Shown: positions 5,236-52,442 of the stretch, in pieces
Position numbering within the stretch: position 1 is the first letter of the stretch
Layout of the letters: every line of letters begins with the position of its first letter
Source of the DNA: Diphasiastrum complanatum
Lineage: Eukaryota; Streptophyta; Lycopodiopsida; Lycopodiales; Lycopodiaceae
Direction: 5' to 3'
DNA: 64,000 nucleotides
Assembly: GCA_029204225.1 (NCBI GenBank)
Contig: CM055092.1
Location: forward strand, 77,602,201-77,666,200
Translations under genes and position numbers: made by a program
The notes under the pieces: generated by a model
Seen by the model: the letters and a program-made list of their open reading frames with translations, nothing else
What the model was told of the DNA's origin: nothing
The model's database searches: none

Positions 5236-6912
5236 AGACCACAAGCTTTGCTTTATCAAAAGTTTTTTGTTCTTGAGCCTTGAGCACAGAACCCATTAGG
5301 GCTAGATTCATTTCTAATCTTGCAGGAGGTTTTTGATTTCTACTTGGTCTTTTAAGCGCTCCCTGCTCACTTGATTCGAGAGTATCTCCCTTATTAGCAT
5401 CACTTGTAACTGACAAGTAGTGACTTAGGCACTCTCCTAGGAATCTCATTATTGACTCTATCTTTTTCCATTGGCTCTTCCATATCGACACCAACTTCTT
5501 CCTTCACTTGCACTTTAGCTTTATCATCAAAGGGATCAATTGTCAATTTTATTTGGTCATTTTGACCCATCTCATCAAAAGTAGCATCTCTGGAAATCAT
5601 GATCTTTTGTGCATCTGTGTCATACATCCTGTATGCCTTGGCTCTTTCATCATATCCAAGGAAAATACACTTAACAGCTTTTGCATCCAGCTTCTATCAT
5701 TTTTCATCAGGTACATGAGCGTAAGCATCACAACCAAATACTCGTAAATGAGAAACATTAGGTTTCTTTCCCATAAGAGCTTCGTAAGGTGTCTTACCCT
5801 CCACGGACTTCGTAGGACACCGATTCAAGATATGAGTAGTTGTGTTGCATGCTTCTGCCCAAAAAGTATTTGGCAAACCCTTGCTCTTAAGCATTGTCCT
5901 AGCCATCTCCACAATGGAATTGTTTTTCTGTTCTGCAACTCCGTTCTCTTGTGGTGAATAGGATGTAGTGGTTTGTCTCTTGATCCCTTGATCCTTGCAA
6001 AAGTTTATAAACTCTGTGGAAAAATACTCACCGCCACCATCTGATCTGAGGGTCTTAGTGTAACAACCTGTTTGTTTTTCAACTAGAGCCTTGAACTCTC
6101 AAAACTTGGCAAAAGCATCAGATTTCTTGCTTATGAAATAAATCTAGATATGTCTACTATAGTCATCAATGAATGTGATGAAATAGTAACAACCACTAAT
6201 GGACCTAGTTTGTATTGGTCCACACAGATCACTATGAACAAGATCAAGAATGCCATTGGCTCTTCTTGCTCCATCTTTGGGAAATCTCTCTCTATGCTGT
6301 TTTTCCAAAATGCAACCCTCACAAATTTTTCCATCAAAAGAGATATCAGGCAATCCAACAACTAGATTATCTCTTTTAAGGATTTGCAAGCTTTGAGCAC
6401 TGATATGACCAAATCTTTGATGCCAAAGATCACTTCGACTATCAACAGTGCTTACCATAGCTTGAGTAAAAGATCTCGCATTCAATTTGTAGAGTCAATT
6501 TCCGTTGACTCTAGCTCATGTAGCAATCACTTTGTAGTGATTTTTGATGTCTTTTACAAGACATTTGTCACTGTCAAACTCAACCTTGAGTTGTTGATCA
6601 GCCATCGTCCCAACGGATAGTAGATTGTTAGCTAAGCCAAGTACATATTGCACATTGCTTATATGCTTTATCTTCCCGTTGGCTAACTTTACTGGTACCA
6701 CTCCAACTCCTTTAACAAATAGAAATTTTCTATCAGCTTGTCCAACTTCATCACCATTGTCAGTTTTCTTGAGTTCTGAAAACCACTCTTTCCTTGAAGT
6801 CATGTGCTTGGATGCACCACTATTAATGTACCAAGTATCCTTGGCTTCATCACTTGTCATTAATGCTGTAATGAACAATTTTGAACCCTCACCTGTATCA
6901 TCTTCATATTGA
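5236..6912 (-). pseudogene. copia protease-integrase-linker (element I)
   Basis: From right to left: a protease-like motif WYINSGASKHM near 6830 (the catalytic Asp of D-S-G is Asn here, so it is inactive), LANNLLSVGTM, gag-pre-integrase LWHQRFGHISAQS, LDLVHSDLCGPI, FITFIDDYSR, then NTFWAEACNTTTHILNRCPT, FGCDAYAHVPDEK and a linker rich in Glu/Asp/Lys that ends just inside RT. Several stops and frameshifts separate these blocks (near 6515, 6144, 5697 and 5400). Element H keeps the linker and RT missing here. Confidence 0.85.
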
Positions 6913-6989
6913 TCATCATCGTAGTGATGTTGATCAGTATAATTGTCTTCATAATAATAGTCATCAAATTGATGTTGATCAGCATAATT

Positions 6990-7490
6990 TCTCGCTTATG
7001 ATTTGTCTTTTCTTTGTTCCATCTCCTTCTGTTTCTTGAAGCATTCACGCTCCCAGTGACTAGGTTTGTTGCAGTACCTACAATTTTCAGGTTTATTTTG
7101 TCTTGAATAGCCGCGTCCTTGACCTCGGTCTTGATTCCAATTACCTCGATTCGGACTATCATTGAATTGCTCATGAATTTGTTGAAATGATCCTCGGCTT
7201 GAGTTTCCTCCTCTCGATTGATACTTTCCACGGCCAAATCTTCCACCTCGTCCTCTAACTGCAAGAGCTTGATCATAGCTCCTGTTACGATGATTCAAGT
7301 TCTCTTGACTTGCTCTTCTTGCAAAAGCAATCCACCTAGTTCTTCATAGGTTGGAAGATTTTCTCTTGTGGCTATACTCGTCACAAACATCTGATGTGAC
7401 TCACTCAGACTATTCAATGTCAATTGCATGATCTCACGATCTTGGGTGTGATCGTTCAAAAGACAGAGATCAGTAATGTGAAAAGTATGA
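6990..7490 (-). pseudogene. copia gag fragment (element I)
   Basis: UBN2-type gag: LTLNSLSESHQMFVTSIATR, then an Arg/Gly-rich segment (VRGRGGRFGRGKYQSRGG) and the zinc knuckle CRYCNKPSHWERECF (CX2CX4HX4C, intact). A short acidic Asp/Tyr/Gln stretch leads to the protease. The N-terminal half of gag is not readable; the start codon is lost. It matches the gag of element H closely. Confidence 0.82.
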
Positions 7491-7597
7491 AGCCTTCTAA
7501 CTCTGAAGGGTAGTACTAGACACTATCTAGTGTGATTTGCGGTACTCCAAACAGACAAATGAGAGATTTCTTGGCAAATCTCTCACACAAGTAGCAC

Positions 7598-8408: not shown

Positions 8409-8666
8409 AAACACTTGGTGTCTCAATCACATTCGATCAGAACTAGACATGTTGCAATTCGATCTACCTCAGTATTATCAATTTCGATTGAATGGTGTAA
8501 AGGTATGTTATGCCATATAAAAATATTCTTTTTTTTCTATTTCCAAGTGAATCAGTTTAATAAAATATATACCTAAAATAATTTCTCTTGTGCAGGTAAG
8601 AGTAAGGCAGGAAGAGCATATAAAATGCAAAGACATTGGAACATCCATCGAAATTGAAGATCCATA
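8409..8666 (+). pseudogene. Possible C-terminal exons of an unknown gene
   Basis: One frame reads LDMLQFDLPQYYQFRLNGVK up to a donor-like AAG|GTATGTTAT; after an AT-rich stretch with an acceptor-like TTGTGCAG near 8596 the frame continues VRVRQEEHIKCKDIGTSIEI and stops at 8666. Splice-like signals and an uninterrupted joined frame suggest the 3' end of a gene in the DNA-transposon-like block. No family is recognised and the join to gypsy at about 8405 removes any 5' part. Confidence 0.3.
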
Positions 8667-8811
8667 GATTATGAACTATGGAATTTTGTATTGTGTAATA
8701 CAATTTTTTGTATACATGATTTTTGAAAATATATGAACCACTTTTTCTATGAGGCTCTTTCATTTCTATGATCTCCATTTCCATGGTGCAAAACACAATG
8801 TAATTGTAACT

Positions 8812-9577
8812 GGATAATATGAGTTTTTGATAGCAAGATTCATTGTCTCCTGCAGGAAATGCACTATCTCCATTGGGGAGATCTCCAGTCACTTAAACTC
8901 CAGTGATCACTACAATCTTCGCTTGCCCTTGTTGATTTATCATATATATCGGTTGTATTTTTGGTCTTCATTGCCTTGGTCTGTATTGTCCTTGTCTTGG
9001 CATATTTGGATATGTTCAAAAGATGAACTGATGAAAGCTTTGTTGTAACAAATCTAAGTTTGTCACATGTTTGGATTGGTTGTGACAAAGGTTCCATCAG
9101 ATCATCTTTCTGAACTTATCCAAAAATAACCATGGTGAAGACAAGGCAGACCAAGGCTATTAACAACAACCATGTCGAAAAACCGTAGAAATTGATGATG
9201 AATGAATCATAACATGAATTAATAGCAGGAAAAACAAGTAAGAACAACCATTGAAAAACTGTAAATATATTTCTATTAAAATTTTCTGTACGTGTGTCTC
9301 ATCCACATCAAGTGAGACGAATATTTTATCAGTATCAACTATCTATGATCTCTAAATCCATTTCTCTAGTTGGAAGTAGCTTGGGTGGAGAACACTCGGC
9401 CACTGCAATTGGATATGAATTTTGGATCACAAGCTTTATGGTCTCCTGTCTGAAGTGTATTATCTCCATTGGGGAGGCCTTCGGACATTTAAACTGAAAA
9501 AAAACATACACACAGATAAATGCAATCAACCAAAGATCAGTTAATAGAAATTTGAATATGAAAAAAAACAAAAACAC
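8812..9577 (-). repeat. Diverged direct duplication of an exon-like segment
   Basis: Segments at about 8812-8898 and 9411-9497 are direct copies (shared CTATCTCCATTGGGGAG or TTATCTCCATTGGGGAG and TCTCCTG). On the minus strand they translate to FKCPKASPMEIIHFRQET (right copy, open to a stop at 9335) and FK-stop-LEISPMEIVHFLQET (left copy). A pyrimidine-rich stretch ending in CAG precedes the right copy, as at a 3' splice site. They may be last exons of a duplicated unknown gene. The intervening sequence shows nothing else. Confidence 0.45.
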
Positions 9578-9636
9578 AATTAGAAGTAATTAATCAAAGA
9601 TTACCTCTTCCATCTGAATACTCTTCTTTCTTCTAG

Positions 9637-10875
9637 GCATTCTCCTCCTAATTCTCCTCCTAAGTCTCCTTCTTCTGCTCCCACTCCATCTTTAACTTCT
9701 CCTGCTAAATCTTATTCTCCTAATAATTCTCCACCTCCTAAATCTTCTCCTCCTCCTAAACCCATAAATATTAGTTCCCCTCCTCCTGTTCTTGAAAGCG
9801 ATTTCGATGATTTTGTTAGTGTAAAGGTAGATTCAATTTTGAATGACAATTCTTTATGTGGTTTATCAGCATTACTTCTGTCAACCCCTATACTTGCCTT
9901 TGTAAATACTCTTTAATATGTACAGTATGACCAATTGTTAAACATGTATCTTAAAGTTTTAGGTCCTCGATACAGTTTTAGGATGCCAAAGACCAATGCT
10001 GGTCTCCCCCTTTCTAGTTTAGATACTAGTGAATTAGAAAGTAGGGATAAAATGCTAGGGGACAATGTAGGAGGTGGGGCAATTTAGTACTGGATGGAGT
10101 TCTTCCAGATCCCATTGTTTATAGATGTTGCATTGTTTTTCCTTCAATTCATGGCTGCATTTGATTTTCCTGATCTCAAAAGTCTGCACGATGATATGCT
10201 CCAATACGTCAGACTGGGGACTCCAATTCTCGTGCTGCCATACATAACAAAGTAAGTGTCTTTTTTTTAGATTTTATTTTATTGAATTTTTCATATGAAT
10301 TTTGATTTCACATTGATCCTCATAAATTTATTGTTTTCTAATTTCAGTGATCATTGGAGCTTATATGTGTTGTCCTTGTACGTCAATGATGAGGGTGTGT
10401 GTAATCCAGTTTGTTTAAAGATCAACTCTATTACACACACACACAAAATTGCCAGGACCCATATACAAAAAAGACTGGAAATCTTTCTAGTACCAAATGC
10501 AAACGCATATTCGAAGCTGAAAATGGTTGATGCAGAGGTATACATTTTTTAATATCGGTTCGACACGTCCTTGTAGTTATTGATTGGATTATTATCATAA
10601 TGTGCGCGTTGATCCGATATTCAATCAATATTTTTTTGATATCGGTTTGATGCGCGCTTGTTTCTGTTGTAGATTTTATTCTTACATCCTGCGCGTTGAT
10701 CTGATATCTCATAATGTTAAAATTTGAATTTTTGCAATCCTCCCAGCAGGTTGATTCTGTCAGCTGTGGTTGGTATACCGTATGCAATGCCAAACACTTT
10801 TTTAATTGGCTTGCATTACAGCTTGGAAAAATCCCGCGCTTTAGATGGAGGGTCAAGAGACCTCCTCTTCTTTGA
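9637..10875 (+). pseudogene. Ulp1/C48-type cysteine protease of a transposon, decayed
   Basis: Three exons can be joined. Exon 1 follows TTCTTCTAG and starts with a Pro/Ser-rich stretch (repeated SPP and PPPKS), then about 150 residues. Its donor is AAA|GTAAGT at 10252. Exon 2 (10348-10537) starts within DHWSLYVL, matching the catalytic-His block of Ulp1 proteases. Exon 3 (10750-10875) opens with VDSVSCGWYTVCNAKHF, matching the catalytic-Cys D-x-x-x-C-G block, and ends at TGA. The splice joins keep frame. Two in-frame stops in exon 1 (about 9914 and 10086) indicate decay unless further introns exist. C48-like domains are known cargo of plant MULE and CACTA elements, fitting the transposase-like gene nearby. 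No start codon was found. Confidence 0.6.
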
Positions 10876-10914
10876 AACACTCCCGCTCTGTATACAAATA
10901 ACAAGTCGGGATGG

Positions 10915-11400
10915 CTAGGATTGCTTTGGTTTTTTCCTCTCTGAATCTTTTTTTGGAGGAGAGGAGGGAGCAGGTCTAAAGTATTCAACAAATTTGTCAT
11001 ATGTGTCCCGAAGCCTGAACACAATGTTGAAATCCTTGGGAATGATGGTCACCCTCTTGGCATGGATAGTTGCAACAACAATATCTGAGAAAAATTTCAC
11101 CTGGAAATCCTCATATGTTGTGTGCAGCACCTCAATTGCCGTTACAGTCCATCTCACATTTGCAGATAAACTTCTTGTAACGTCTCTGATAAACCTTTGT
11201 ATGTGAGATTTCGAAATCAGAAGATTGTTTGTCTTCTGAAGCTTTCGAATATCCTTGAGCCAGGGTGGGTCTCTTCTTCTGCCCCTTGGCCTAGGAGGAG
11301 GTGGTGGTGAACGAGGTGGTGGTTGTGGATTTTCCTGACCCGCACCTGAAATTGGTATTCCACCTGAATGCCCTTGTGCTGTTTGCTTGGTCCGTGCCAT
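10915..11400 (-). CDS. Divergent histone H3 variant within a transposon-like block
   Basis: The intact 161-codon ORF starts MARTKQTA, the exact H3 N-terminus. The rest of the tail is Pro/Arg-rich (PPPPPRPRGRRR) and about the same length as in H3. From residue 48 the fold aligns with H3 without gaps: LKDIRKLQK (alpha-N), LLISKSHIQRFIRDV (alpha-1), RWTVTAIEVL (alpha-2) and the hallmark TIHAKRVTIIPKD before alpha-3. A basic C-terminal extension of about 25 residues replaces the short H3 end. H3 K4, K56, K115 and K122 positions are Lys; K9, K14, K27, K36 and K79 are not kept. Histone H3 packs DNA in nucleosomes; whether this one does so is unknown. It lies 17 bp after a transposase-like gene (same strand) and 39 bp from the convergent protease gene. 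Alternatives: a captured or decaying CENH3-like copy. A CAG 3 nt before the ATG could be a splice acceptor. Confidence 0.85.
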   Translation of the reverse strand: MARTKQTAQGHSGGIPISGAGQENPQPPPRSPPPPPRPRGRRRDPPWLKDIRKLQKTNNLLISKSHIQRFIRDVTRSLSANVRWTVTAIEVLHTTYEDFQVKFFSDIVVATIHAKRVTIIPKDFNIVFRLRDTYDKFVEYFRPAPSSPPKKDSERKKPKQS

Positions 11401-11417
11401 TACTGTGAAGTAGCGGA

Positions 11418-13534
11418 TCAGCGCGCGATAATGTTGATTTCAGGATCAGACCTCATGTTGGCCGCGTCGAAGTGATACCTAAGCTCAACAAATTTGTTAG
11501 CTGGTAGCGGATGGACGCGAGCGAGTAGTAACAGATTGAAGGAAGTTGTTATGTAGTCCTGCATTTGACAGAACTATTTCCAACCTCCTAATTGTTGCTT
11601 TAGCCACTGACTCTGGTTTATGATTCCATGCTAGTAGAATATGCAGGTAAATTAGTTTTTCAATAATACGGACCTCAACATGCAATGTGCATATGTGAAC
11701 ATATTTTAATGGAATCGGCAGAACACTTTTCATAATTGGATCTTCAGCTTCTCGTGTTGGGCCAGTGTTTGTTGATCGTCCCAAATTCATATTGTAGCAA
11801 TCCTTCATGCAATAAAGACATGGATGCTTTGATGTTGCCCCATGAGAGACATTATACATACATTTTAATGTTTTCAAATCCCTTGCAAGGTGCCATTGAA
11901 TTTGAAAATTTCCATGGTTTTCGACTGTAAATTTCTCACCCTCCAAATGTCTCTTTATAATCTCGCCATGATTTGTTCTTGAAAATATCCATGATAGTAT
12001 TTTATGGTCCTCTTTCAAGACTTGTAGAAAAACAAGTAATGCATGACATGTCAATAAAAACTGGCAAGGTATGAAAATTGTTAATATAGATATTCTAAAT
12101 GAAAATTGAAATGTATACCTGGAATGCCGCCAACCACCATATGTGATTTTTCGACTGAACAGTAAACGTTCGATCATCTGTATCTGAAATTTTGTTCATC
12201 AAAGTGACACTCACACGTTCCAACTTCTGACCCTTGATGATTTCAGATTCATCCAATTTTATTACAATAATGATCTTTCCATTTACTTGATGTTCGTCTA
12301 GTTTATAGAATCAAATAATGTATTTTAGAACATTTTCAATATCAAGGAAAATATTATTGCAATCGTTGTAATTGAGCTCACCATATTCTGATTTGTATAA
12401 TTCAATTATATGAAGTGATTGGCCAACTACTTTGAACATTTCGTCATTATAAAAATTTCTAGCTAATCCTACCCAATATGGGCGCGGAAGATTAACTTTC
12501 TTCACCATCACTTGGGAAAAAGCTTCTTTAACTATTCTAAAAAAAGTAGAATAAGCATTTCTCCTAATTCCAGATACATCACATGCACCTTGTATCACAT
12601 TCGCATCCAAGTATGATTGAACCTTAATCAAATAGTCTCTACAATTTCATTTTTCATTTTTTCAATCCGAGCATTTTTTATCATTTCATTTGCTGACTTT
12701 CTTGGTAAAACATGATTTAAAGATGATCCAATGCATGAACGATCTATTAAATAGTTCTTTGCCACCAAACATGATCTGCAACAAACATATGAAAATCAAA
12801 TTATGTTTAATAAATAAATAATCCATGTTATCAGTACAAATCAAACTTAAATGACATATACAAATCAAATAAACAGTTTAGATGACAACATACTTGAATA
12901 CTCGGATTCTTTTTTTCTGATTGCCGCTATGTGTAGATAGGTCATCAATATTCTTCATCGATACTCTCTTTCTTTTTCTCTTCATCATTGTCTTATTGAT
13001 AACTTTTAGATCAACAGCAGATTTTAAACTCTCGGATCGCAACTCTTCCATGGATTCTGACATTTCTTGGTTTGATCCTCGAAGAGTAGTGACAATAGCA
13101 TTCAACTCTGACATAGCATTCTTGAGTGCATTGTTTTCAGCACTAGTGTGTTGCACATAATGAAGCAATTGTTGATTAGCATGTTGTAATTGTTGATTAG
13201 CAAACTGTAATTGTTGATTCAGACAAGATATGCTATGCATTCCAATATCATGCAACCTTTGACAATATCCAAGTAATCCGCTATTTCCTTCACATACATA
13301 TCTGAGAAGATGAGTTACGGACTTAAAATCTCGACACAAATTGGTAGCTGGATCATTAGGATAAATTGATCCATCCACCCACAAATCTATATTCATATGA
13401 TTATTCATTCTCAATTCTCTAACTATTGCTGCAACATTCTCTACAACTTTCGCATTTTTCTTAATAATTGGAGTGCATTCCATCAGAAGAGCAACATGCA
13501 AATGGAACATTGCCATTGTTAAAGCTACAATCAT
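11418..13534 (-). pseudogene. Transposase-like gene with intron, decayed
   Basis: From right to left: an N-terminal region with a 7-residue tandem repeat (NQQLQFA, NQQLQHA, NQQLLHYV) typical of a coiled coil, a nuclear-signal-like MKRKRKR, an intron (donor AA|GTATGTTG near 12897, acceptor TTGTTGCAG near 12777), then NEMIKNARIEKMKNEIVET, SYLDANVIQGACDVSGIRR, KLDESEIIKGQKLERVSVT, LARDLKTLKCMYNVSHG, a PCLYC motif and LPIPLKYVHICTLHVEVR. A D-x-K followed by CX2C and a downstream H-x-C-x2-H recalls the Cys-rich insertion of some large DDE transposases; I do not recognise the exact family. A one-base frameshift near 12640, a stop at 12311 and frameshifts near 12170 and 11520 break it. The last frame ends ELRYHFDAANMRSDPEINII before a TGA 17 bp from the histone ATG. 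Confidence 0.55.
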
Positions 13535-14049
13535 GTAGATGAATCTACCTACAATAAATCAATATGAATAGATCTAGCATTCCTTACTTTTGTAATGTTT
13601 ATGTCGCATTGAAAAATCATCTCGCCTCATATTTCACTTTTAGCATATAGTGATTTCAAAAGTTTTGCTCCTCCCGCTTCAGTTTTTGCATTGAGCACAC
13701 CAAGATTTTCAGTCTTAAAGCTCTAGTCCCGAACTTTGGAACGAGCATGAAGAGATGTTATTACATCTCATGCTAAACTAACTATTTTCTGAAGTTAACC
13801 ATACTAGTTAAACGTTGGGCAAGGCCAAAAACAAGAAAACCGGCGACCAAAAATTATTGGTTTGCATTCTCTCTCTACGTAACCACTCTCTAAAGCAAAA
13901 TTTCTTAAAGGGCCCATTTTGAGCCCATATTTTCCCTAATGTCACCCAAATTTCTACGGATCTATATCTTTCGTTGAGAGGAAAATATAAATCAGATTCC
14001 CATTTTGATCACATTTGGAACATTGTTCAGGTCGAAAGAAATGTGGACA
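13535..14049. other. Non-coding border of the transposon-like block
   Basis: No convincing ORF. This is the 5' side of the transposase-like gene and ends where gypsy integrase sequence resumes. I looked for terminal inverted repeats between here and 8405-8460 and saw none that convinced me, so the ends of the block remain undefined. Confidence 0.4.
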
Positions 14050-36559: not shown

Positions 36560-37700
36560 TGATTGAAGAAGATCAGCAAGCATTTGATAGGAGAAAACGA
36601 AAAGCCTAGAATGTCATCAACTTATAAGTTAGAGATGCACTTATTCCCTATATTTTAGATTTAGAAGGACCAAAAGAAGCGTGGGATACATTGAAGGCAT
36701 TGTTTGAAACGAAAATACATCTCGAATACTGTTTCTGAAGACGAAGTTGCATACATTGCGGATGGATGATGGTGCAACTATTTCCGATCACATACTGAAG
36801 ATCAAAGAGATCCGTGACCAATTAGCAGCAGTTGGACAGTGAGTACAAGATCGTGAGATCGTGCAATTGACATTGAATAGTCTGAGTGAGTCACATCAGA
36901 TGTTTGTGACGAGTATAGCCACAAGAGAAAATCTTGCAACCTATGAAGAACTAGGTGGATTGCTTTTGCAAGAAGAGCAACGTCAAGAGAACTTGAATCA
37001 TCGTAACAGGAGCTATGATCAAGCTCTTGCAGTTAGAGGACGAGGTGGAAGATTTGGCCATGGAAGGTATCAATAGAGAGGAGGAAACTCAAGCCGGGGA
37101 TCATTTCAACAATTTCATGAGCAAGTCAATGATAGTACGAACCGAGGCAATTGGAATCAAGGCCGAGGTCAAGGATGCGGCTATTCAAGGCAAAATAAAC
37201 TTGAAAATTGTAGGTACTACAATAAACATGGCCACTGGGAGCATAAATGCTTCAAGAAATAGAAGGAGATGGAACAAAGAAAAGACAAATGGCAAGCGAG
37301 AAATTATGCTGATCAACATCAATTTGATGACTATTATTATGAAGACAATTATACTGATCAACATCAATACGATGATGATCAATATGAAGATGATACTGGT
37401 GAGAGTTCAAAATTGTTCATTACAGGATAATGACAAGTGGTGAAGCCAAGGATACATGGTACATTGATAGTGGTGAAAAAACACATGACTTCAAGGAAAG
37501 AGTGGTTTTCAGAACTAAAGGAAACTGACAATGGTGATGAAGTTGGACAAGCTGATGGCAAATTGCTATCTATTAAAGGAGTTGTAGTGGTACCAGTGAA
37601 ATTAGCCAGTGGGAAGATAAAGCAGATAATCAATGTGCAATATATACCTGGCTTAGCTAACAATCTACTATCTGTTGGGACGATGGCTGATCAACAACTC
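36560..37700 (+). pseudogene. copia gag and protease remnant (element H)
   Basis: Reads IEEDQQAFDRRKRKA, LEGPKEAWDTLKALFETK, MDDGATISDHILKIKEIRDQ, LTLNSLSESHQMFVTSIATR, VRGRGGRFGHGRYQ, a zinc knuckle CRYYNKHGHWEHKCF (second Cys is Tyr), an Asp/Tyr/Gln-rich acid stretch and WYIDSG of the protease (Asp kept). Stops and frameshifts occur near 36615, 36630, 36841, 37075, 37262 and 37430. Confidence 0.83.
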
Positions 37701-49589: not shown

Positions 49590-52442
49590 ATGAAATTCTA
49601 TGAGATTGCACCCTCATTCAAGCGTCTAAAAAATTTGAAGGAATCTGCGAGATCCAGATCACCTGCTGGTAGTTCTAAACACAAGAAGGCGTCGCCTGAT
49701 GAAGCCACCACTTCTCGTCATTATGTACACGATGATGACTTCTCAAATGAAGCCGTGCTGGAGGCCGAGGAGCTTTACACCTCCATTCGTGATCTGCCGT
49801 CATTCCGAGCTGCTTACGCAAATTTCAAGCAGCGATACCCTAAGTTTAGTGAGACGCTATACGCAGATGACTTAAGAGAAGAAGAATACAGTCATCTCCA
49901 AGAAAATGGTACTATCTGCATGGACTTCCATGGGTTGGGGCTCTTTTCTTTTGTGCAGCGTTGGCTGGATGGGCGTTCATGCTCTTTTCGGCTCTCATTT
50001 ATTTCAGCTAATCTCCACGATCATGCCTTGTATGGAACAGCAGCAGAAGGAACAGTTGAGTATGATCTTCGCAAACGAATCTTGGAGTATTTGAATGTGA
50101 GAGAGGACGAGTATAGCATGGTTTTCACGGCTAGCCATGCTTCGGCGTTCAAGCTTCTCGGAGAAGCCTTCGCCTTCACATCATGCCCTCGGCTTCTAAG
50201 TGTCTATGATCATGAAAATGAATCATTGAACAGATTGATTCACGGTGCCAAGATTAAGGGGGCAAAGATCATGAGTGCTTCCTTTAGATGGCCATCGATG
50301 CGGATTTGCTCCACAAATCTGAAAAAACTATTGCAAGATAAGAAAAAGAAAAGAGAGAAAGCAAGAGGTATGTTTGTGTTTCCGACTCAGAGCGAGGTAA
50401 CTGGTACTAAATATTCTTATCAATGGATGACGCTTGCGGAGAAGTATAAGTGGAAAGTTGTGCTGGACGCTTCAGCTCTAGGACCAAAAGATCTGGATTC
50501 TTTGGGGCTTTCTCTATATCGTCCCGATTTCATGGTTTTCCCTTTCTACAAAATCTTCGGATCTGATCAGACAGGGTTTGCTTGTCTCTTTATCAAAAAG
50601 TCTTCACTTCAGTGTCTTGAAAAATCTTCTTCAGGCAGAAATTTAGGAATGGTTCGCATTGTGCCACTGCCTGTAGAAGATTTTACAGACCAGGAGGATG
50701 AGTCGGAGAGGGGTAAAGCTGAAAGCCCATTTCAATGCAGTGTGGATAGTCGATCAGAGAGCAACGGCTATTCACCAGTAGCGGGAAATTACAGTGTGGA
50801 AGACAGACGGGTAGAGATCGGTGGAAAGGAGGGGCGGCAGACGCCTCCCTTTACTAAGCCCCATGGATCAAGCTCAGGACTGATGAGAACAAATATGCAG
50901 GGCTTACCACTAGACGGTTCAACGAAAAACTTCATGACAAAAAATTCTCCTCAGGCTGGAGCCGAAGGCATTATTGTCAGCGAGCAAGTCTATACCGAGG
51001 AGAAAGGCGAATTCAGTGAAGATGCCAACTTCAATCTTGACTATAAGAATTCCACAGATTTTCCACCGGAAAACACCAGGATCGGTGCCATTTCTGTGAA
51101 CTCGCAAGAGGAAAATCAAGGAGCCGGGCCTAAAACCGAGGTTTGGGGGAGGCAAACGGAGTCCATGTCATGCACTATGCAGGTGCAATCAGCTTCTTCG
51201 GCGGAAAATAGTTCAAATCAATCGATGTTAAATATGTGTCATAACAGCAGTCCTCACAGCCAATCTCATTTTGATCAAGATTTGCGTCATGGAGAGGATA
51301 AAATGAAAGGTGGTTATTGGGATCCATCCACATTAGCAGCATGGAAAAGAAATTCAGAGGCGAGTCATTCAGGCATTGGATTCGAATCTATGCAAACTCA
51401 TAGCATACCATTTTATCAGCAGGAAGCATTTTCTTTTAGGCATGAAGGATGTGTTGTGAAATCTGCTCAGCAAATATCTCCAAAGGTTTCTGAGACTAGT
51501 GTCAGCAATTTGGCATATGAATCAGAACCTGAGACAAGAAGCTCTGGGGAGTCTGTTGACGATACTGAGTTGCAGGAAAATTCTCATTTTCATTCCGTTT
51601 CTCATCATACAAGAAGCCCTCAAAAACTGGAGGAGGAAATTCAGCAGGAACAAATCGATCAAGTCGAAGACTCTTACCACAAACGCTTGGGAAGGGATAA
51701 TGGGCTTATTGATAGTCGAAAAGTCGATTATTTTCCGTCGCCTTTTACAGAAGAAGGTGAAGATGATCTTACTTCGAACATCAGCTCTGGGCTTTTTGTC
51801 TACCGTAAGAAGGGTACTGCAGGTTACTTAGAACCTCTTCCAGATGATATTTATGGCAGGGATAGTTCAGGCATTGAAGAGTCAGAAGAAGAAGAACACG
51901 ATGCTGGTGGAGGACCTCCTCAGGTTGTGTGCAGAGGTCTTGATCATGCTGATTCTCTTGGCCTTACGAAAGTTAACATTAGACTCAGGAGCCTGATTGA
52001 TTGGCTTGTTGAGTCTTTTGCAAAGCTCCACCATGCACGGCACGAAAGCCCTCATCCTCTTGTTGAGATAGTTGGCCCGAAGGTAAAATATGACAGAGGA
52101 GCATTTGTAGCTTTCAATCTGGTCGACTCCACAGGTAAGCTGTTGCATCCACGTTTCATTCAGAATATTGCTGAGAAAAGCAACATCTTTCTGCAGCTGG
52201 GTTTTGTCTCGAACTTTTATAATGAGAGGAGAACGCAAGGTGTTCCTAATCCATTTGTAGCCAAAACTGTCGCTACACATCAGCCCTCAAAACTTCCTGT
52301 TTTGACTGCAGCCCTTGGCTTTTTATCAAATTTTGAGGACGTTTACAGATTATGGATGTTTGTGTCTAAATTTCTTGATCCTCAGTTTGTAACACAAGAA
52401 AAATCTAAGTATATTGTGTCAAATCAAGAGGCAACATCGTAA
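49590..52442 (+). CDS. PLP-dependent transferase, molybdenum cofactor sulfurase-like (plant family)
   Basis: A 950-residue protein in one uninterrupted exon. It belongs to the plant proteins annotated as PLP-dependent transferase superfamily / Moco sulfurase-like, such as Arabidopsis At2g23520 and At4g37100. Residues about 108-340 form the class V aminotransferase (NifS-like) large domain: CMDFHGLGLFSFVQRW, VFTASHASAFKLLGEAF, VVLDASALGPKDLDSLGL (Asp293 at the cofactor-ring position) and FPFYKIFGSDQTGFACLFI, with Lys321 where PLP attaches. A long Ser/Glu-rich low-complexity segment (about 365-790) follows. Residues about 800-950 match the conserved small domain: HADSLGLTKVNIRLRSLIDW, VEIVGPKVKYDRGAFVAFNL. 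The MOSC domain of true Moco sulfurases is absent. The N-terminal KRLKNLKESARSRS may be basic targeting sequence. Biochemical role in plants is unsettled. The start is the first ATG, after a splice-like CAG. This is the only clear host gene here. Confidence 0.93.
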   Translation: MKFYEIAPSFKRLKNLKESARSRSPAGSSKHKKASPDEATTSRHYVHDDDFSNEAVLEAEELYTSIRDLPSFRAAYANFKQRYPKFSETLYADDLREEEYSHLQENGTICMDFHGLGLFSFVQRWLDGRSCSFRLSFISANLHDHALYGTAAEGTVEYDLRKRILEYLNVREDEYSMVFTASHASAFKLLGEAFAFTSCPRLLSVYDHENESLNRLIHGAKIKGAKIMSASFRWPSMRICSTNLKKLLQDKKKKREKARGMFVFPTQSEVTGTKYSYQWMTLAEKYKWKVVLDASALGPKDLDSLGLSLYRPDFMVFPFYKIFGSDQTGFACLFIKKSSLQCLEKSSSGRNLGMVRIVPLPVEDFTDQEDESERGKAESPFQCSVDSRSESNGYSPVAGNYSVEDRRVEIGGKEGRQTPPFTKPHGSSSGLMRTNMQGLPLDGSTKNFMTKNSPQAGAEGIIVSEQVYTEEKGEFSEDANFNLDYKNSTDFPPENTRIGAISVNSQEENQGAGPKTEVWGRQTESMSCTMQVQSASSAENSSNQSMLNMCHNSSPHSQSHFDQDLRHGEDKMKGGYWDPSTLAAWKRNSEASHSGIGFESMQTHSIPFYQQEAFSFRHEGCVVKSAQQISPKVSETSVSNLAYESEPETRSSGESVDDTELQENSHFHSVSHHTRSPQKLEEEIQQEQIDQVEDSYHKRLGRDNGLIDSRKVDYFPSPFTEEGEDDLTSNISSGLFVYRKKGTAGYLEPLPDDIYGRDSSGIEESEEEEHDAGGGPPQVVCRGLDHADSLGLTKVNIRLRSLIDWLVESFAKLHHARHESPHPLVEIVGPKVKYDRGAFVAFNLVDSTGKLLHPRFIQNIAEKSNIFLQLGFVSNFYNERRTQGVPNPFVAKTVATHQPSKLPVLTAALGFLSNFEDVYRLWMFVSKFLDPQFVTQEKSKYIVSNQEATS

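Follow-up and report, generated by a model that had tools for sequence, protein, structure and literature searches.

The histone H3-like open reading frame analyzed here belongs to a high-copy, DNA-transposon-like family of about 10 kb with 32-bp terminal inverted repeats in the genome of the lycopod Diphasiastrum complanatum. It lies in a 64,000-nucleotide stretch (hereafter, the window; contig C1, 77602201-77666200, of the 1.74-Gb assembly that we searched for further copies), and in other copies its 161 codons form only the beginning of a longer frame. There, a glutamine stands at the position of the window's TAG and the H3 frame continues through a basic, proline-rich linker into a protease-like domain, which corrects the earlier reading of a 161-codon ORF. 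We propose, with a probability of roughly 45% and on the strength of sequence comparisons, that this H3-like/protease-like fusion serves the element as an accessory anti-silencing protein. The copy in the window is itself broken, with a TAG after codon 161, an inverted protease-like segment and a truncated transposase-like gene, and because of the TAG and the local inversion it has lost the fusion.

The first-pass annotation had noted an uninterrupted 161-codon frame, and we found it on the minus strand (11400 to 10918); the same frame on the plus strand is closed. The profile check against Pfam Histone gave 68.6 bits (cut-off, 26.4), and the top match among solved structures was histone H3.3 (71.6 bits, E 6.8e-19), in an alignment that spans residues 1-130 and is broken only by a one-residue gap in the tail. 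The motifs that had first suggested H3, MARTKQTA, LKDIRKLQK and IHAKRVTIIPKD, are all present, and the alignment to canonical H3 is indeed gapless, over 85 fold positions. The window copy is identical to canonical plant H3 at 34 of these positions and the family consensus at 37. When we simulated neutral decay by substitutions only, down to the identity of the consensus, the 85 codons stayed open in 131 of 2000 runs, which is a weak test alone. The resemblance of the window ORF to a histone exceeds chance, because the score is far over the threshold and this protein turns up at another 149 scored places, with the decay simulation adding to both. Identity in the fold to the nine H3s compared was 29-45%, with no clear closest relative. 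A search of protein collections with the 161-residue protein returned seven distant H3s, longer fusions being outside the length window of that search, and viral contigs searched with the H3-like protein and with the transposase alignment gave no confirmed match.

Within its own genome the H3-like sequence had 7,338 loose candidates; all 150 that we scored matched, and the 149 places other than the window were 77-89% identical to the window copy. The match was free of stops at 37 of the 150, and many of the genomic copies, the window copy among them, are decaying relics. Host H3 genes separate from the element were found at 13 places, 96-98% identical to canonical H3. The outcome that the first-pass annotation had set against its own reading, a poor match to histones or else a decayed host gene in one copy, without a link to a repeat, was tested and is not what we observed.

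Upstream of the H3-like sequence, on the same strand, lie broken pieces of a gene whose protein has relatives in other sequence collections, among them P0025 of the fern Adiantum nelumboides and two lgn-tagged (Logan) proteins with 91% and 95% identity to the pieces in the window. These relatives share KLDE, GDLKTLK(CM), CxxC and HICTLHA blocks, a conservation that suggests a DDE transposase with a zinc knuckle. A Pfam scan of eight relatives placed only P0025 above the cut-off, through an unrelated DUF7794 part, and detected no hAT domain in any of the eight; a PDB search returned no match. We call the protein transposase-like because neither Pfam nor PDB names it. Its C-terminal part had 10,521 loose candidates in the genome, and all 150 that were scored matched.

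The two genes travel together more often than expected by chance. Thirty of the 150 best H3 places had one of the top 150 transposase places no more than 12 kb away (0.31 pairs expected; the close pairs include a few duplicate small contigs), and in 29 of these 30 pairs the genes shared a strand with H3 downstream, 18 of the 29 at 3.4-4.1 kb (range 1.5-8.7). Around H3 copies, 20 ten-kilobase stretches held the transposase upstream on the same strand in nine cases, on the other strand in one and not at all in ten. A protease-like sequence, so labeled from its motifs, accompanies H3 at 30 of 32 places, as the first-pass annotation had supposed.

The anatomy of the element is well supported. On one strand, a coiled-coil/transposase-like gene is followed about 3.5-4 kb further on by the H3-like/protease-like gene, and terminal inverted repeats sit at the edges of similarity between copies (CATTAGGG.../...CCCTAATG). 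They form a 32-bp imperfect inverted repeat whose arms are alike at 24 of 32 positions (5', CATTAGGGGAAATATGGGCTCAAAATGGGCCC; 3', the reverse of CATTAGAGAATATTAGAACTCAAAATGGGCTC), and the termini are about 10.0 kb (X30) or 10.6 kb (X37) apart. A 29-base pattern of the 5' terminus, with two mismatches or fewer, matched the genome 1,064 times, and the reversed control did not match at all. Among 100 listed 5' termini, six had a member of the 150 H3 places no more than 10 kb away (against 0.17 expected pairs) and 12 had a transposase place (contigs C1-C10), in every case downstream on the same strand; pairing with the 70 H3 places of contigs C1-C10 and again with all 150 gave the same six H3 pairs. 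No target-site duplication was found in the three copies with both ends (X30, X37 and C6:3354209). The first-pass proposal of a mobile element carrying a strongly diverged H3 is thus borne out by a high-copy repeat in which H3 lies downstream of one transposase-like gene and between terminal inverted repeats; a host H3 gene is its presumed source. Two more gene candidates of the element were seen on the strand opposite to these genes, the minus strand of X30 (L042, L030, L046), at about 8644-6997 and 13604-12325, and also in X37; neither had a Pfam match above the cut-off.

In the window, the element can be followed on the minus strand, apart from one inverted segment, through these parts:

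13910..13941, minus strand: 5' terminal inverted repeat, CATTAGGG..., matched at reversed position 2060 (window 13941) and adjoining Ty3/Gypsy-looking sequence
12878..13534, minus strand: ORF with a coiled coil, the probable beginning of the transposase-like gene, as P0010 holds both parts in one protein
11551..12795, minus strand: decayed transposase-like exons (tblastn of P0008-P0026), with the C-terminus missing from 11551 on
12795-12631, 12646-12314, 12310-12116 and 12036-11551, minus strand: the individual transposase-like pieces
11401..11550, minus strand: leader of the H3 module; similarity to L002-L020 (19 loci) stops between 11550 and 11517
10918..11400, minus strand: H3-like domain, 161 codons, with its TAG stop at 10917-10915
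10821..10914, minus strand: H3 frame continued past the TAG, where the linker begins; other copies read through it
9613..10820, plus strand: inverted segment that contains the proline-rich linker together with the Ulp1/C48-like domain, its exons assigned by inspection
8415..9612, minus strand: 3' region of the element, truncated at 8415 so that the 3' terminus is absent

The coiled-coil ORF also lies upstream of the transposase pieces in L026, L027, L029, L030, L033 and L037. The boundary at 11550/11551 is a deletion junction of the window copy, the full copy X29 having 3.6 kb between the same flanks, and matches to X29, X30, X33 and X37 all stop at reversed position 7586, which is window 8415. 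Directly after the H3 module, the segment at 9613-10820 has the opposite orientation in all 19 of the loci L002-L020 (it is short in L011 and L017); its exons, by inspection, run to about 10250, from 10348 to 10537 and from about 10737 to 10872. We considered and rejected a convergent order of the H3 and protease-like genes in favor of a local inversion of the window copy, and we likewise rejected a Gypsy reverse transcriptase at 8410-8517, which is part of the element's 3' region. That 3' part also contains an 83-base repeat (8817-8899 and 9413-9495, 77% alike), both units of which have an LPNGD...GD reading frame.

The fused layout recurs across the family. With seven re-fetched places counted once, 30 of the 32 distinct places had a protease-like segment downstream of H3 in the same orientation, and two had none. 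In 20 of these 30 the segment was in frame with H3, where chance would give 10, and in 10 it was out of frame; the joint frame was fully open at eight and not open at 22. Some of the 32 places are near-duplicates; among 25 distinct copies other than the window, 23 had the segment, 16 had it in frame and seven were open. The in-frame spacings ranged from 753 to 804 bases, leaving aside L026, where a retroelement lies between the two parts and the frame is maybe kept by luck. Two of the eight open fusions, L021 and L022, have no ATG.

The order of motifs in Ulp1/C48 proteases is His-Trp ... Asp ... Gln-x5-Cys-Gly, and the copies present DHWSLYVL ... MNSIT ... QQVDSVSCGW (HW...Asn-Ser...QQxDSxxCGW), in which the position of the catalytic Asp looks like Asn when compared by eye with 1euv/2iyc. 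The Peptidase_C48 profile did not match exon 1 or two pieces, nor, at a limit of E 10, spliced pieces; solved structures searched with the domain yielded no protease, and hhalign to Ulp1/SENP1 gave E 0.13, with 0.18-0.30 for three shuffles. The name Ulp1/C48 is provisional for this putative protease, since motifs alone speak for it and every profile test failed.

A search with the fusion protein returned P0027-P0029 only. P0029, a named Diphasiastrum complanatum protein, was 64% identical to the element's linker over 10% of the query. P0027, a predicted protein of 653 residues on a 5.9-kb contig, resembles the fusion in uniting Peptidase_C48 and Histone in one protein, but its protease comes first and its H3 last, and that H3 is near-canonical and a far stronger match; it is perhaps an independent fusion or a join made by the gene model.

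We tallied the tail and fold residues over 26 distinct copies. In the tail, T3, K4 and H10 were invariant, Q5 and T6 were kept in 24 copies, A1 and R8 in 20, and R2 and A7 in only 13; position 9 was G in 25 copies and R in one. Between residues 1 and 44 the sole lysine besides K4 was at position 40, in three copies (the tail does not align, and positions beyond 14 are numbered by count). The canonical ARTKQTARK tail with modifiable lysines 4, 9, 14, 18, 23 and 27 was thus not kept in the 26 copies. The constancy of K4 may partly reflect its codon, which offers C-to-T decay no target in the coding strand. Within the fold, R69, R83, K115, R116 and D123 were constant in all 26 copies, H113 and K122 were each kept in 25, position 72 was R in 23 and K in three, and R63 and R128 were lost. 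We take all ten of these to be DNA-contact or H3-H3' interface residues, and most such residues are preserved in the predicted protein. CENH3 has an extended loop 1 relative to canonical H3, and the element H3 has no loop-1 extension, its loop being equal in length to that of the canonical H3 P0001; the element H3 is therefore not of the CENH3 kind.

Comparison among copies shows a signature of selection on both parts of the fusion. In the H3 part, the ratio of replacement to silent changes was 0.81 for private and 0.45 for shared changes (26 distinct copies, Fisher p 0.021; 26 of 40 sequences kept, window included, after re-fetched and near-identical ones were removed), and in the protease-like exon the ratios were 0.76 and 0.37 (20 distinct copies of 34 after the same filter, p 0.0099). 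Two sets of transposase pieces, with five of six and six of eight sequences kept, were too few for the same test (p 0.64 and 0.40). C-to-T changes affected 14.5% of CG, 12.9% of CHG and 3.2% of CHH positions, against 1.1% for A/T transitions. An excess at CG and CHG is the pattern expected from plant cytosine methylation, so copies of the element were probably silenced in the past.

In the proposed anti-silencing mechanism, the histone fold of the fusion keeps most of the residues that contact DNA and the H3 partner; it would therefore pair with H4 supplied by the host and be built into nucleosomes at the element or close to it. Such nucleosomes could carry neither H3K9me2 nor H3K27me3, because the tail keeps ARTK (K4) but almost no other lysine, and the loss of H3K9me2 would break the loop between H3K9me2 and CHG methylation. 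The tethered protease-like domain might strip SUMO from local silencing factors, or free the histone part by cutting. The boldest form of this proposal, in which a plant transposon makes its own hard-to-silence nucleosome from an H3 that keeps the K4 end without the tail lysines for repressive marks and is covalently joined to a SUMO-protease-like domain that strips silencing complexes away, we regard as doubtful. A dosage, targeting or purely structural role of the histone would leave identical sequence evidence.

Copy number and linkage have already refuted the simplest alternative, that the ORF is a decayed host H3 or CENH3 gene merely sitting among repeats. Its histone fold score is good and the window is repeat-rich, but the host H3 genes are accounted for elsewhere, the 149 further copies of the element form come with recurring neighbors, and loop 1 lacks any extension relative to canonical H3; we leave this reading almost no credence. 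A captured H3 fragment could instead have been amplified by transduplication as a passenger without a role. The many copies with stops fit that picture, as do the published fungal hAT cases, which may be of this kind and include hundreds of dead copies (PMC3538342, PMC6710886). Against it, shared changes are poorer in replacements than private ones in both H3 and protease-like parts, the spacing between these parts varies by steps of three in most copies, the fusion layout recurs at nearly all the places tallied and most DNA-contact and dimer residues are kept, and we consider a passive cargo unlikely.

The histone fold might also dock a transposase complex on nucleosomes or H4 and so steer insertion or excision, while proteins of the element would be processed by the protease-like part and silencing would not be the target. 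The constant order and strand relative to the transposase-like gene, and the retention of most residues that meet the H4 partner and DNA, are what such a factor would predict, but it leaves unexplained why ARTK is retained amid the loss of other tail lysines, and we rate it as quite improbable. The anti-silencing reading remains the one we prefer.

H3 genes on transposons are already known from fungi. The cited passages report a hAT element with an H3-like gene, H3L, in Pyrenophora tritici-repentis (26 H3L genes; PMC3538342) and an H3-carrying hAT with hundreds of copies in Pseudocercospora fijiensis and relatives (PMC6710886). As described there, these resemble the present element in being DNA transposons with an amplified H3-like gene beside the transposase, and the fungal H3L matched neither H3 nor CenH3 (PMC3538342, PMC6710886). 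They differ in that H3L is a separate ORF, with no protease-like fusion described in those passages, whereas here the fusion is in frame; and the transposase is a hAT there, whereas the present case is a plant element with a transposase-like protein that has no Pfam name and with thousands of candidate copies. A plant precedent for transposon anti-silencing proteins is VANC, which with KIU is among the anti-silencing proteins of Arabidopsis VANDAL Mutator-like elements, according to the portions cited (PMC10398659; PMC13317346). Like the fusion, VANC is an accessory transposon gene, some versions have a Ulp1 domain, and its element is likewise targeted by DNA methylation; the same portions mention no histone fold, the main text of PMC13317346 does not use the word histone, and the element fusion for its part has no Ulp1 profile match and a putative anti-silencing role.

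Among fungal transposons that carry TET/JBP (KDZ and others), the chromatin gene is a dioxygenase, in the section cited (PMC12730594). There, Kyakuja has 5'-CA..TG-3' termini, as the element does, but no terminal inverted repeats and 7-bp target-site duplications, whereas the element has the repeats and showed no duplication in three copies; Zisupton has 8-bp duplications (PMC12730594). The introduction of that paper names VANC, SET and TET/JBP as transposon-borne chromatin genes. Our search of the open-licence literature, which misses most subscription papers, turned up no publication on an H3-bearing plant transposon or on an H3-Ulp1-like fusion.

Chromatin enzymes and sequence-specific anti-silencing proteins are among the known cargo of transposons; if our proposal is true, a nucleosome component made by the element itself, and under selection, would represent another route against silencing. 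With candidate copies in the thousands, both open and decayed, this single genome allows one to ask whether a parasite can evolve an H3 that is refractory to H3K9 and H3K27 marks and whether hosts and transposons compete over the lysines of the H3 tail. The family would also offer chromatin research a natural set of extreme H3 variants.

A second H3-like group occupies at least 128 places in the genome once the 13 host genes, and those listed fragments with an identity of 78% or higher, are set aside. Its members have 43-56% identity to canonical H3, and many are open. None of these lies less than 5 kb from the 150 scored element H3 places, and the 128 x 150 comparison with the transposase-like gene gave no pair within 15 kb (0.33 expected). 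One member, L056:1-941, stops where H3 stops, without a fusion. The group may be another H3-carrying repeat family.

Elsewhere in the window, an intact ORF of 950 residues on the plus strand (49590-52442) looks, by eye, like a plant gene of the molybdenum-cofactor-sulfurase-like kind. Two inverted pieces 30 kb apart (6863-7444 and 36846-37428), Copia-type by eye, are 94-99% alike, a sign of recent retroelement activity.
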